A DNA stretch of 31,307 nucleotides, taken from a virus. Position 1 is the first letter of the stretch. Each line of letters begins with the position of its first letter. Below are positions 26,126 to 31,307 of this stretch, in pieces. The DNA lies in the IMG/VR virus record IMGVR_UViG_3300019828_000225, positions 1 to 31,307 of that record; one strand, 5' to 3'. The translations under genes and the position numbers were made by a program. The notes under the pieces were generated by a model that was not told the origin of the DNA, did not search any database, and saw nothing but the letters and a program-made list of their open reading frames with translations.

Positions 26126-26359
26126 TTATACATCAAAACTAGGGTGATGCAACCTCAACTCTTCTTCAGTCGGTGGCTCCATAAATAAATCCTTAGCTTC
26201 CTCAATCTCTAGCCAGATCATATCTATCTCCTTTCTTCCGTAAACAGCAAGGGCAGACCCATAGATAACAGCCTCAGTAATAGAATCTAACCTTTCAGTA
26301 ACGTCCGTTAAACCGTACTTAATAGCGTTTATTCTTAACTCCTCCAAGTATCCTGTCAT
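26126..26359 (-). CDS. Hypothetical protein, last gene of the leftward operon
   Basis: A 77-residue acidic helical protein (YLEELRINAIKYGLTDVTER, IDMIWLEIEEAKDLFMEPPT). No family recognised. It starts in an ATGA overlap with the NinG-like gene and is followed by the operon terminator. Confidence 0.6.
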   Translation of the reverse strand: MTGYLEELRINAIKYGLTDVTERLDSITEAVIYGSALAVYGRKEIDMIWLEIEEAKDLFMEPPTEEELRLHHPSFDV

Positions 26360-26763
26360 TGCAGTCTCTCCTCATGGTGTTTAATCTGACTTTCAAATTC
26401 TGCTAACATTTCTCGGTAGTCAGCCACATAAAACTTCTTTAACTTTCGCTTATCTTCGTGCATCTTCTCAACAAAGTCCAGTCCATAGTAATTAATCATC
26501 CATAAAGTGTACTGTCCTTCAGCGCTTCCATGCTTCATGCCAAAACCATTGCACCCTTTGCACTGGGGATGAACATTCTCAATCTCTAAAGCCCAATAAG
26601 AACTAGAACCTTTTGCAATGAAATGTCCTCCGTCACAATCCTTCCAATGCATTCTTTTATCATCACAAGAAACACACTCAACCATACCCCATTCGTCAGC
26701 CGCAGATATTCTTGCTAACTTCTGAATTGCTTCCAAGCATTTTGCTCTTAGCGTTTTAGCCAT
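26356..26763 (-). CDS. NinG-like recombination protein
   Basis: A 135-residue protein of the lambda NinG (Rap) type, a Holliday-junction-acting recombination factor. It has C30-x-x-C33 in CVSC, GHFIAKGSS (46-54), and NVHPQCKGCN with H65, C68 and C71. These zinc-finger/HNH-like motifs and the C-terminal basic-acidic helices are the family hallmarks. It works with the NinB-like protein upstream in the same operon. Confidence 0.85.
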   Translation of the reverse strand: MAKTLRAKCLEAIQKLARISAADEWGMVECVSCDDKRMHWKDCDGGHFIAKGSSSYWALEIENVHPQCKGCNGFGMKHGSAEGQYTLWMINYYGLDFVEKMHEDKRKLKKFYVADYREMLAEFESQIKHHEERLQ

Positions 26764-27408: not shown

Positions 27409-27861
27409 TCATTCCACCTGTTTACGTTTAAGTTTTGAGTAGTCACTATCCATAGGGACGGTTAACATAACGCCTCCCTTTGTAGCTAGGTCATACACCT
27501 GATCTAAAAAGAAACACCATTCACCTGCTGATAACTTGTTTGTGCTTTTAACCTGCCCTGCTACGATAGTAGACTTAAACTCGTAGTCTTGGGTTCCTAA
27601 GAATTTATGCTTCATTAGCATTTTGATGGTAGCTTCGTCCTCTGGAGTGGGCTTTTCCTTTATCCACTTCCCTGCTATCTCCCTGCACCACATATGAAAC
27701 AGTCTACTTTGTGATGTTGAGGTAACAGGAACGTAAGCTTCTACCCTGATAACGCAAGGAACGGTATAGTCCCAGGCATGTATTCGCTTGGTTATGTATT
27801 CCATGCGCTTCTCAATGTCATTCCTTGAGGTGATTTTAACGTGATCGCCTTGAGTAATCAT
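27409..27861 (-). CDS. NinB-like recombination protein
   Basis: A 150-residue protein. SQSRLFHMWCREIAGKWIKE and KLSAGEWCFFLDQVYDLATK, followed by GGVMLTVPMDSDYSKLKRKQ, resemble lambda NinB-type proteins that bind single-stranded DNA and help recombination. A NinG-like gene lies downstream, as in lambda. The ATG overlaps the previous stop (ATGA). Confidence 0.65.
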   Translation of the reverse strand: MITQGDHVKITSRNDIEKRMEYITKRIHAWDYTVPCVIRVEAYVPVTSTSQSRLFHMWCREIAGKWIKEKPTPEDEATIKMLMKHKFLGTQDYEFKSTIVAGQVKSTNKLSAGEWCFFLDQVYDLATKGGVMLTVPMDSDYSKLKRKQVE

Positions 27862-29134: not shown

Positions 29135-29204
29135 CCTTAATGGCTTTCTTTAAGATGAGGTTAGCTCCTGCCAAACTGTTCCTTAACTCTTGTTCTTTAT
29201 TCAT
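29100..29204 (-). CDS. Tiny helical hypothetical protein (34 aa)
   Basis: A 34-residue amphipathic helix-like frame (MNKEQELRNSLAGANLILKK). It has a GAGG about 8 bases upstream and overlaps the next gene by 35 bases. Credible from its SD and place; function unknown. Confidence 0.5.
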   Translation of the reverse strand: MNKEQELRNSLAGANLILKKAIKDVEREYKALED

Positions 29205-29229
29205 AATCTTATCCTCTGTTTAATCTCTG

Positions 29230-29706
29230 TTATTCAAACATCTTTCGCATTGTATCCAAGTGGATACGAGCCTTCTCCTTCCTTTCTTCCTTCGTGCCAG
29301 ACTCTAATAGCTGTTCTGGCTTGTAAATCTTGTGGCATAACGTCCCTGCCGACCCTGTAAAAACCCCTTCGTTGGTGATTAATCCTATAATTGCATCAAT
29401 ATCAGGCCAGTTAAACTTATCATTCCCGGATCTTCTCTCTTTGTGGGCTAAGTCGAACGCTTCATTGATCTTTTCTCGACTAAACTTAGCAATAACCTTT
29501 CCAAATTCCCTTCTCGCTAGGTCAGATGATACTTTATCAGGCCATTGTGTCTGCATCTTCACTGTTCCATACAAATTCTGTAGTCGCATAAAAAAATAAG
29601 CAATGGAATCTTTGTCTTCAGGACTAAAAGTCTGTGGCTTTTTCGTAGTCGTAGAAGTTTGAAGCGTAATCAGATCGTTTTTCGATAGCAGTTCGTTTAT
29701 TTGCAT
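29230..29706 (-). CDS. Lambda P-like helicase loader candidate
   Basis: A 158-residue protein. YFFMRLQNLYGTVKMQTQWP, REFGKVIAKFSREKINEAFD and NWPDIDAIIGLI resemble phage replication P proteins, which load the host DnaB helicase. It directly follows the initiator gene, as P follows O in lambda. The ATG at 29706 has GAGG upstream; it overlaps the initiator gene by 83 bases. A longer frame from 29751 lacks a good site. Confidence 0.55.
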   Translation of the reverse strand: MQINELLSKNDLITLQTSTTTKKPQTFSPEDKDSIAYFFMRLQNLYGTVKMQTQWPDKVSSDLARREFGKVIAKFSREKINEAFDLAHKERRSGNDKFNWPDIDAIIGLITNEGVFTGSAGTLCHKIYKPEQLLESGTKEERKEKARIHLDTMRKMFE

Positions 29707-30346
29707 TTTCTTTATTCCTCTTTTTGTCGCTTGCTTCCCAAGTTTGGACACACTTCTTCCAGTTCTGCATCTTATTCTTGCCGATCATCCAGCCTTTGCT
29801 TCCATAGAAGTTCATAAAGTTCTGCGCATCAATACCGTTGCCTCTCTCATCACAGTATTCAGTCACTTCTTCAAGCGTAGGTATCTTTAACTTTTCCTCA
29901 TTTTCAGGTAACTCTGGGGGTTTACCCCCTTTATTATTAACTGTAATATTAACTGTAGTATTATCTTTAAAGATTTCTTGGGGAGGGTCACAAAGATTTC
30001 TTGGGGAGGGTATTAAAGATTTCTTGGGGAGGGTACCCAAATTTTCTTGTATACCCCCATCTCGAATTCTTATGTGTCTAGCCTCAATAGTTTTCGTGCC
30101 TTCCTTGTATTTCATCTGAACATCTATATAGCCGCAATCACGCAAACTACCCACCCAATTACTGATAGATACCTTACTGACGCCGTATAATTCAGCAAAA
30201 TACGCATTCATTGCCCAACAATAGCCCTCTTTGTTGGTTAAAGCGGTAATTTCCCCATACAAAAGTCTTGCATTAGGGGTTAAACGCTTGTCATACCTTA
30301 CTGTTGCAGGAATATTAGCGTAATAACTAGGGTTCGGCTCGCCCAT
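29624..30346 (-). CDS. Replication initiator with N-terminal winged HTH
   Basis: A 240-residue, lambda O-like initiator. Residues about 17-75 (LTPNARLLYGEITALTNKEG, AELYGVSKVSISNWVGSLRD) are an HTH_36/DnaD-type DNA-binding domain. The middle (about 95-130) is a poorly conserved linker that carries the iterons. The C-terminal GSKGWMIGKNKMQNWKKCVQ, with FMNFYGSKGW, is the usual phage initiator tail that contacts the loader. Its start overlaps the Cro-like stop (TAATG). Confidence 0.8.
   Translation of the reverse strand: MGEPNPSYYANIPATVRYDKRLTPNARLLYGEITALTNKEGYCWAMNAYFAELYGVSKVSISNWVGSLRDCGYIDVQMKYKEGTKTIEARHIRIRDGGIQENLGTLPKKSLIPSPRNLCDPPQEIFKDNTTVNITVNNKGGKPPELPENEEKLKIPTLEEVTEYCDERGNGIDAQNFMNFYGSKGWMIGKNKMQNWKKCVQTWEASDKKRNKENANKRTAIEKRSDYASNFYDYEKATDF
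29916..29929. other. GGGGG-TTTA-CCCCC hairpin beside the origin
   Basis: A perfect 5-bp GC inverted repeat with a 4-base loop, inside the initiator gene, next to AT-rich repeats and iterons. A possible origin structural element. Confidence 0.45.
29936..29957. repeat. AT-rich direct repeat, candidate DNA-unwinding element
   Basis: ATTAACTGTA occurs at 29936-29945 and again at 29948-29957 (period 12) in a very AT-rich stretch adjoining the iterons. Confidence 0.55.
29969..30034. repeat. Three iterons: candidate replication origin
   Basis: AAAGATTTCTTGGGGAGGGT is repeated exactly at 29969-29988, 29992-30011 and 30015-30034, with a period of 23. A degenerate fourth half-copy (AAATTTTCTTG) follows at about 30039. 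As the period is not a multiple of 3, the initiator protein reads them in three frames (TLPKKSL, SPRNL, PPQEIF). It looks like a lambda-type origin inside the initiator gene. Confidence 0.85.
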
Positions 30347-30549
30347 TATTCGCCAGCCGCTATAAACTCGCTAACCTTAACGTCACAAGCTCTGGCAAGT
30401 TTCTCTAGTGTTGCCACACTTGGCAGACGATGCTCGTTATACGCTAGATTAAGTGTTGTCCTATCTACCCCTGAAATAGCCGATAGACTAGACTGATTCA
30501 ACCGTCGGTCATACATCCAGTGGTCAAGTGCTTTTTTAATGTCTAACAT
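30346..30549 (-). CDS. Cro/CI-like XRE-family HTH regulator
   Basis: A 67-residue DNA-binding protein. LNQSSLSAISGVDRTTLNLA and HRLPSVATLEKLARACDVKV are a standard XRE HTH. It has no C-terminal domain, so it is more Cro-like than CI-like. It is the first gene of the leftward replication operon, so it likely represses this divergent promoter region. GAGGG lies 7 bases before the ATG. Confidence 0.8.
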   Translation of the reverse strand: MLDIKKALDHWMYDRRLNQSSLSAISGVDRTTLNLAYNEHRLPSVATLEKLARACDVKVSEFIAAGE

Positions 30550-30575
30550 ATTAAATCCCTCATTAGTGAAACCCT

Positions 30576-30604
30576 ATAGTAATTTAATTTAATATAATAG
30601 TCAA
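30576..30604 (-). promoter_or_regulatory. Leftward early promoter
   Basis: On the minus strand TTGACT (30604-30599), a 17-base spacer, then TACTAT (30581-30576). The leader to the HTH gene start is about 20 bases. Confidence 0.65.
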
Positions 30605-30612
30605 TAGGGGTG

Positions 30613-30641
30613 TTGACAATAGTTGTTTGATAGTCCATTAT
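30613..30641 (+). promoter_or_regulatory. Rightward early promoter
   Basis: A perfect TTGACA (30613-30618), a 17-base spacer, then CATTAT (30636-30641). The leader to the ATG at 30673 is about 25 bases. An ACAA-TAG-TTGT palindrome (30616-30626) overlaps the -35 and could be an operator. Confidence 0.65.
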
Positions 30642-30672
30642 GTCACTTCAACATCAGAGAAAAGGAAAGAAA

Positions 30673-30819
30673 ATGAACGGATGGAATGGTAGCGGCGAAG
30701 ATTGGTTACACGGTGACGAAAATTTAACAGACGAGGCTTATCCACCAGTGTCCCCGGAAGAGATCGAAGAGGCGTTAGCTGATATTAAGCTAAGAGAGGA
30801 GAAAGACAATGAAAGCTAA
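30673..30819 (+). CDS. Small acidic hypothetical protein, first gene of the rightward early operon
   Basis: A 48-residue acidic protein (MNGWNGSGEDWLHGDENLTD, VSPEEIEEALADIKLREEKD). It has AAAGGAAAG just upstream of the ATG and lies right after the rightward promoter. It overlaps the next gene by 11 bases. Too short for many gene finders; no family recognised. Confidence 0.6.
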   Translation: MNGWNGSGEDWLHGDENLTDEAYPPVSPEEIEEALADIKLREEKDNES

Positions 30820-31117
30820 AAAAATAAAACCAGTAACCCCTAGACCAAGAGCGTGGCCTTATATTTTGATGGTTAAAAGATGGGTAAAGGATAGAGACTC
30901 TGTTTCATTGGGTGATCTACTAACTATCCAGAAAGACTTAGTGAAGGACGCTAACAACATTTTTAACAAGGACGTCAAGAAAGGCGAGCTGCCATTTTCT
31001 GATGTATCTGCTAAACCCTTTCATGCAGCCTGTAGTGCAGTAGATGCGGCAATCAGGGCAAAAAACGGATGGTCTTCACTCGAAACACTGGAAAGGCCAA
31101 GCAATTCGATTCATTAA
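30809..31117 (+). CDS. Hypothetical protein (102 aa)
   Basis: A basic 102-residue protein, Pro/Lys-rich at the N-terminus (KAKKIKPVTPRPRAWPYILM), then helical (VSLGDLLTIQKDLVKDANNI). AGAGGAG lies upstream of its ATG. No family recognised. Part of the rightward early operon. Confidence 0.6.
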   Translation: MKAKKIKPVTPRPRAWPYILMVKRWVKDRDSVSLGDLLTIQKDLVKDANNIFNKDVKKGELPFSDVSAKPFHAACSAVDAAIRAKNGWSSLETLERPSNSIH

Positions 31118-31135
31118 ACAATATGAGGTGACAGC

Positions 31136-31300
31136 ATGGCCAGATTAATAGATACAATGACTGCTGATCAGATGAAGCTGTCTTGGAGAGACTATCGCAA
31201 GCCACAAGGCACAGTGGGGACCTCGTATGCTTGGTTCGATGAAATGTGCAAAGAGATGCCTGGCAATAGAGGCTTTGACAAATACTTAGAACGACCTTGA
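31136..31300 (+). CDS. Small hypothetical protein at the right edge
   Basis: A complete 54-residue protein (MARLIDTMTADQMKLSWRDY, YAWFDEMCKEMPGNRG). GAGGTGAC precedes the ATG. No family recognised. The rightward operon continues beyond the edge, perhaps to the exonuclease at the left edge. Confidence 0.55.
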   Translation: MARLIDTMTADQMKLSWRDYRKPQGTVGTSYAWFDEMCKEMPGNRGFDKYLERP

Positions 31301-31307
31301 TCGCGGC

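Follow-up and report, generated by a model that had tools for sequence, protein, structure and literature searches.

Origins of replication that lie within the gene of their own initiator protein are known from both phages and plasmids. The origin of phage lambda consists of inverted-repeat iterons in gene O, which are bound by dimers of the O protein and have an A/T-rich region adjacent to them (PMC5043065, PMC7466680). In oriL of phage SPP1, direct repeats in gene 38 are bound by the product of that gene, and an A/T-rich unwinding element is present (PMC6316719). Among the RepA_N plasmids, pSK41 carries its origin in the central part of rep; the protein can do without the linker that this part encodes, and it binds the Rep boxes with a winged HTH at its N-terminus (PMC5703833); the iterons of the RepA_N group are semi-palindromic repeats that converge on a poly-A tract (PMC7145576). 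The Staphylococcus aureus plasmid pPR9 has a pSK41-type rep in which a phage-like N-terminus of the PF13730 type has taken the place of N-terminus and origin together, and the mini-replicon of pPR9 has been reported to be autonomous and compatible with pSK41 (PMC5703833).

The window considered here, that is, the whole stretch of 31,307 nucleotides analysed (IMG/VR record IMGVR_UViG_3300019828_000225), is a 31.3-kb record of a marine tailed phage that is incomplete or linear and in which terminase, portal and major head protein are present. Positions 29916-30056 are, in all likelihood, the replication origin of this phage, encoded in its own initiator gene, with four iterons that would be bound by the winged helix of the initiator, A/T repeats that would be melted and a helicase that would then be brought in. 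The features of the locus are collected in the table.

Features of the initiator gene and its surroundings (positions of the window; a point marks features without strand)
Feature	Position	Strand	Remarks
Cro/CI-type HTH regulator	30346-30549	-	directly upstream of the initiator; HTH_3, E 8e-7
Replication initiator gene	29624-30346	-	240 aa; N-terminal winged helix, then a disordered linker and a helical C-terminal domain
Winged-helix domain DNA (residues 14-94)	30065-30307	-	AF2 pLDDT mostly >85
Recognition-helix DNA (residues 58-70)	30137-30175	-	helix position from AF2; covariation with iteron arms at residues 59 and 63
Iteron copy 0 (diverged)	30034-30056	-	GGG box + TATACAAGAAAATTTGGGT
Iteron copy 1	30011-30033	-	CCC box + TCCCCAAGAAATCTTTAAT; exact 20-mer 30015-30034
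Iteron copy 2	29988-30010	-	exact 20-mer 29992-30011
Iteron copy 3	29965-29987	-	exact 20-mer 29969-29988; adjoins A/T tract; frame and distance fixed family-wide
Recombination junction with L002	29951	.	identity <50% towards the iterons and HTH, 95% towards the C-terminus
A/T-rich 12-bp repeats	29930-29965	-	GATAATACTACA GTTAATATTACA GTTAATAATAAA; 20-27% G+C; TRF 29935-29963
Hairpin	29916-29929	.	GGGGG-TAAA-CCCCC (also written GGGGG-TTTA-CCCCC); adjoins A/T tract
Gene overlapping the initiator 3' end	29233-29706	-	ORF; position of a lambda-P-like helicase loader

The N-terminus of the initiator belongs to HTH_36 (PF13730; E 4.2e-13, 49.3 bits against a Pfam cut-off of 25), and its PHROG matches comprise replication initiation proteins (19658, 270 and 428) and a DnaD-like helicase loader (186). 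A PDB sequence search gave no significant match. The AF2 model places helices at residues 14-17, 24-35, 47-54 and 58-70 and strands at 74-80 and 87-94, and predicts that residues 99-149, which are encoded by the iterons and the 12-mers, form a disordered linker. The stop codon of the upstream regulator overlaps the start codon of the initiator (TAATG). Regulator, initiator, overlapping gene, NinB (27409-27861) and NinG (26356-26763) follow one another in a lambdoid-like early operon, all on the minus strand, and this order coexists here with podovirus-like head genes. Rfam matched nothing within 29200-31307. The gene that overlaps the 3' end of the initiator is a candidate helicase loader, and replicative helicase or loader genes lie directly 3' of the initiator in many relatives. 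It has no family match in Pfam or PHROG and its product gives a poor AF2 model (pLDDT 43); it may or may not be a homologue of lambda P. Sequences of about 60% identity to it are present in marine viral contigs (L498-L513), and one GenBank phage, Marinobacter phage AS1, matches it.

A sequence-only reading of this DNA had pointed to three exact 20-bp repeats with a 23-bp period in the initiator gene, each encoding a different peptide, and had taken this as a sign of selection on DNA. The 20-mer AAAGATTTCTTGGGGAGGGT (plus strand) indeed occurs three times inside the linker DNA with spacings of 23 and 23, TRF calls a repeat at 29969-30049 with period 23 and 3.5 copies, and translation in the three frames gives TLPKKSL, SPRNL and PPQEIF. 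Two features went unremarked in that reading, namely a fourth, diverged copy (GGGGGTATACAAGAAAATTT on the coding strand, at about 30034-30056) and the semi-palindromic character of each copy, with an AAG-AAAT-CTT core. On the coding strand, the unit runs from a CCC or GGG box through a T, an arm and an A-tract to the inverted arm, and the repeated element is better described as one of about 23 bp that includes the box. When the initiator gene was recoded synonymously with the phage's own codons, none of 5000 versions (0/5000) matched the longest exact out-of-frame repeat of the linker, which is 22 nt, and the recodings reached at most 14. Thus, it is the DNA and not the peptide that is under selection, as had been proposed.

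The boxes (e.g. 29985-29987, 30008-30010, 30031-30033, 30054-30056) are GGG or CCC, with the strand flipping between copies and also between close relatives (L050 against L071). Across the family, 160 boxes are of the CCC type and 108 of the GGG type, both kinds being present in 49 of 93 genes. Since the boxes lie about midway between two dyads, a contact that is shared by either neighbouring iteron is a possible reason for the flip.

The A/T-rich 12-bp repeats and the hairpin that had been noticed beside the array were both found there, and the former are a probable DNA unwinding element. A 12-mer within at most one mismatch of GATAATAATACA is present in or just after the linker DNA in 242 of 308 genes, against 3 of 308 shuffled ones. 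As this anchor is selected by the match itself, the next 30 bases were tested separately: Asn is encoded there by AAT and AAC in a ratio of 360:10, where the rest of the genes has 1135:608; ACA for Thr and ATT for Ile are likewise enriched. The 12-mer TTAATAATACA is kept as DNA from marine phages to prophages of Firmicutes, Spirochaetes and Bacteroidetes, which exceeds mere A/T richness, and it might be read by the initiator, bound to single-stranded DNA, or by some factor of the host. In the closest relative, L002, the hairpin has a compensated pair, GGGGG/CCCCC having become GGGGA/TCCCC (GGGGA-TAAA-TCCCC). Strong stems follow the A/T tract in 23 of 129 genes, where the null gives 3.6 (maximum 7); in a control region they are seen in 1 of 125. 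A hairpin at this place is thus a recurrent option and no constant, so that the idea of a universal element is only partly true.

Relatives were drawn from viral contigs, GTDB genomes, and GenBank phages and plasmids, yielding 308 distinct genes, and the same order recurs in them across many bacterial phyla: HTH, iterons, AATAATACA 12-mers and a variable C-terminal domain. The iterons of the family are palindromic, contain an A-tract and have a period of 22-24 bp in any reading frame. Their spacings are 22 (89), 23 (82) or 24 bp (50) in 221 of 223 intervals, with 2 others. The iteron that adjoins the 12-mers keeps one phase and one distance, and the copies upstream of it occur in all three phases (115/77/31). 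With spacing fixed and phases varied, a distance near two helical turns is evidently maintained even where the reading frame is not. Further, out-of-frame copies matching at 14 or more of 16 positions are found in 14 of 83 genes, against a mean of 0.1 and a maximum of 2 under the recoding null.

The arms vary widely among phages (GGACA..TGTCC, TTGAC..GTCAA, GGAAG..CTTCC), with a constant A-tract between them. Within genes, the arms are complementary at positions 3/16, 4/15, 5/14 and 6/13 in 66-82% of genes, as against 29-57% when arms are paired between genes (z 8.3-9.7 at the four pairs), and slid pairings lose the signal. Under a strict self-similarity rule, at least two iterons are present in 93 of 135 dereplicated genes and one copy in 42. 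Relatives with the same HTH and no repeats had been named beforehand as evidence that would count against an origin; the 42 single-copy genes go some way in that direction, and the 93 others retain the array. A candidate exception is the Campylobacter jejuni plasmid NZ_CP028934 (L529), in which the HTH is present and neither 12-mers nor iterons were detected by the family criteria.

Covariation between the HTH and the iterons was measured as mutual information, computed over 93 genes for some 85 HTH columns against five positions of the arm. Among all of these pairs, the strongest signal links residue 63, an Asn in the window (N63), to arm position 6 (z 15.6); the second links residue 59, here a Val (V59), to arm position 4 (z 10.9), followed by S62 with position 3 (z 4.9) and K58 with position 5 (z 4.6). 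The residue-base tables are chemically sensible: Arg63 goes with C at position 6 in 36 of 39 cases and Lys, Asn or Ser63 with A, and G at position 4 accompanies Arg59 in 16 of 17 and Glu59 in 7 of 7. The C found at position 4 in the window is a minority choice for Val59 (3/13). Predictions made from genes of less than 60% HTH identity were right for 74 of 83 genes at position 6 (majority guess 26) and for 52 of 78 at position 4 (guess 36). In 46 disjoint sister pairs, the same two combinations are the top two of 310 residue-base tests, with p values of 1.5e-4 and 1.6e-3. With one gene per 60% HTH cluster (n=23), residue 63 with position 6 still comes first (z 4.5), and residue 59 drops out.

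In held-out phage and plasmid genes that were fetched afterwards (n=11), 7 of 11 bases were predicted correctly at position 6 and 7 of 10 at position 4. The Arg and Val rules held in 11 of 11 instances (Arg63-C 5/5, Arg59-G 4/4, Val59-A 2/2), and the failures concerned Lys59 and Thr, Asn or Ala63; the helix-base code is therefore strong for Arg and leaky elsewhere. As no part of the HTH is encoded by iteron DNA, the covariation cannot be a product of overlapping coding, and it indicates, at the level of sequence, that the iteron arms are read by the recognition helix, chiefly through residues 59 and 63.

The same partnership can be seen in natural exchanges. A close relative of the window phage, the viral contig L002, matches it at 95-98% DNA identity from 29951, within the 12-mers, through the remainder of the gene and past its end; the initiator HTH of L002 is 34% identical to that of the window, and its iterons (CCCCCTTGACGT units) are unrelated. 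Alignments reveal similar exchanges in L465/L118, L089/L124 and several Enterococcus phages, with the 12-mers and the C-terminal domain kept. Near-identical initiator C-termini and 12-mers combined with exchanged HTH and iterons were also seen in the pairs L426/L430 and L245/L252. As the swaps retain the 12-mers and the C-terminal domain, HTH and iterons behave as one exchangeable module, which would be a cassette for specificity, open to replacement as a whole by recombination. The earlier idea of an origin-type iteron array is thus borne out by the 22-24 bp spacing in any frame, the covariation with residues 59 and 63 and the joint exchange of HTH and iterons, and the check that it had suggested, that the iteron DNA, unlike the linker peptide, should be conserved or co-vary with the N-terminal HTH, gave the expected result.

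The repeats, their layout throughout the family, the covariation, the natural swaps and a selection that acts on DNA rather than protein are all directly established; from them we infer origin activity in the window phage and, likewise, binding, melting and helicase loading. The winged-helix N-terminal domain would bind each of the four semi-palindromic iterons, two helical turns apart and probably as a dimer, and the specificity of this step is supported by the covariation. The array would then strain or melt the adjoining 12-bp A/T repeats, and the C-terminal domain, perhaps together with the product of the next gene, would bring in the replicative helicase; both DNA opening and helicase recruitment are modelled on lambda and RepA_N. 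The protein linker would simply be what the iteron DNA encodes and would for that reason allow identical DNA to be read in three frames. GC skew, which was tried for mapping the origin, proved uninformative, with the skew tracking gene strand.

How else could such an array be explained? It might be one of two or more origins, the main one possibly lying outside the window, as SPP1 has two such sites with one of them in the initiator gene (PMC6316719), and as the present record is incomplete or linear. A tandem-repeat scan across the window found no second iteron array, although a single-copy or diverged site would escape such a scan, and we regard this arrangement as unlikely. Alternatively, the repeats could be an operator that serves the initiator mainly for repressing or pausing transcription of its own operon, with the true origin elsewhere. 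The initiator does lie directly behind a Cro/CI-type regulator, intragenic operators exist, and the match between helix and arms is one of protein and DNA that is silent on the outcome of binding. However, the array lies in the middle of the gene, and its distance and phase relative to a conserved A/T tract of 12-mers are fixed, as is the case in origins; in relatives the initiator is followed by helicase or loader genes; and pPR9, which has the same layout, is reported to replicate autonomously (PMC5703833). An operator is, on these grounds, quite improbable.

Two further explanations have still less in their favour. Some relatives have a 24-bp period, such that the peptide itself is repeated (PIKEKLNTPIKEKF), and a flexible linker with repeated partner-docking motifs could be imagined from them; yet the three copies here encode three different peptides, the linker is predicted by AF2 to be disordered, and out-of-frame copies far exceed those of the synonymous-recoding nulls. 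The out-of-frame copies and the recoding rule out a repeat that serves the protein, which is consequently very hard to credit. Slippage can yield exact tandem arrays, and the copies here are exact over 20 bp, but a neutral recent duplication would hardly leave the layout, the spacing and the helix covariation common to relatives from many phyla, or iterons that change along with the HTH in natural swaps, and its probability is close to negligible. Overall, the array is very probably a functional intragenic iteron origin.

These observations offer an explanation for the low-complexity linker of a very widespread and little characterised phage initiator family, in that the linker encodes the origin. 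They also yield a sequence rule by which the origin of a metagenomic phage can be sought, namely palindromic repeats with an A-tract and a period of 22-24 bp and, after them, AATAATACA 12-mers. The specificity between initiator and origin can further be put as a hypothesis at the level of single residues, and specificity modules are seen to be exchanged in nature, as reported for pPR9. It seems reasonably likely that the HTH_36 phage initiators share a partly readable code, in which residue 63 specifies arm base 6 (Arg-C; Lys, Asn or Ser-A) and residue 59 base 4 (Arg or Glu-G; Val-A), and that HTH and iterons form one cassette joined at the conserved 12-mer melting element. If so, one could predict from the sequences of many phages their origin specificity and hence their compatibility in replication. 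No account of the HTH_36 phage-initiator layout or of a helix-iteron code was found in searches of one open-access library, which does not by itself prove absence; as far as that library shows, the family-wide rule and the code seem to be new.

It is instructive to set the locus beside the known systems. The sequence-only reading had named the lambda origin inside gene O as its parallel, and iterons with an A/T-rich tract in the initiator gene are what was found. Lambda, as well as the O of Stx phages, shares with the window the iterons in the initiator gene and a similar operon order of regulator, initiator, next gene, NinB and NinG. In contrast to lambda, the iterons of the window differ in sequence and spacing and the adjacent gene is without a P-type family match; moreover, Phage_rep_O is absent among the Pfam matches of the initiator at E up to 1, and its O-like PHROG matches are weak (phrog_678, E 9e-7; phrog_345, E 6e-4). 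SPP1 differs in possessing a second origin, oriR, elsewhere. Another relative is Orf269 of Lactococcus phage phi31.1 (34% identity over the N-terminus), which resembles the window in having GGGGGTATTAAAGAAAATTTT repeats at a distance of 45 bp with a further copy between them, followed by A/T repeats of 12 bp and then a hairpin (TCGGAC-AA-GTCCGA), and differs in its 12-mer (TAATAAATCAAT) and its C-terminal domain. The rep of TP901-1 was set aside as an experimental parallel, its HTH_36 match being borderline (24.5 bits, cut-off 25) and its 15-bp repeats not being of the window-type layout.

The closest system is that of the RepA_N plasmid replicons (Rep of pSK41 and pTZ2162), with an origin within rep and a winged-HTH N-terminus, and the window has their trait of semi-palindromic iterons that converge on an A-tract inside the initiator gene. 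The top PDB matches of the initiator model in Foldseek are RepA_N initiators (5kbj, 4pql and 4pt7, one of them with DNA; E about 1e-2), and the VIA Z for the RepA_N match is 9.6 over 102 residues, a range (Z 8-9.7) that unrelated winged helices also reach. The initiator matches neither RepA_N (PF06970) at E up to 1 nor the RepA_N C-terminal domain (PF18008). Unlike the RepA_N replicons, the gene of the window stands in a lambdoid-type phage operon and has a 22-24 bp spacing, GGG/CCC boxes and AATAATACA 12-mers. The rep DNA of pPR9 runs from repeats through TAATAATAC A/T repeats and a 16-nt inverted repeat to the C-terminal domain, the same order of elements as in the window, and its N-terminus matches PF13730 weakly, below the Pfam cut-off. 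It is unlike the window in an HTH too distant for the family profile, in-frame repeats of 15-bp period and a RepA-type C-terminal domain. pPR9 may nevertheless be considered the best functional parallel, from which function would transfer by layout rather than by close homology. While the sequence itself was, as the earlier reading had it, not a recognised one, its kind is known: the window very probably holds an intragenic iteron origin of the type found in lambda O, SPP1 gene 38 and, closest of all, the RepA_N plasmids such as pSK41.
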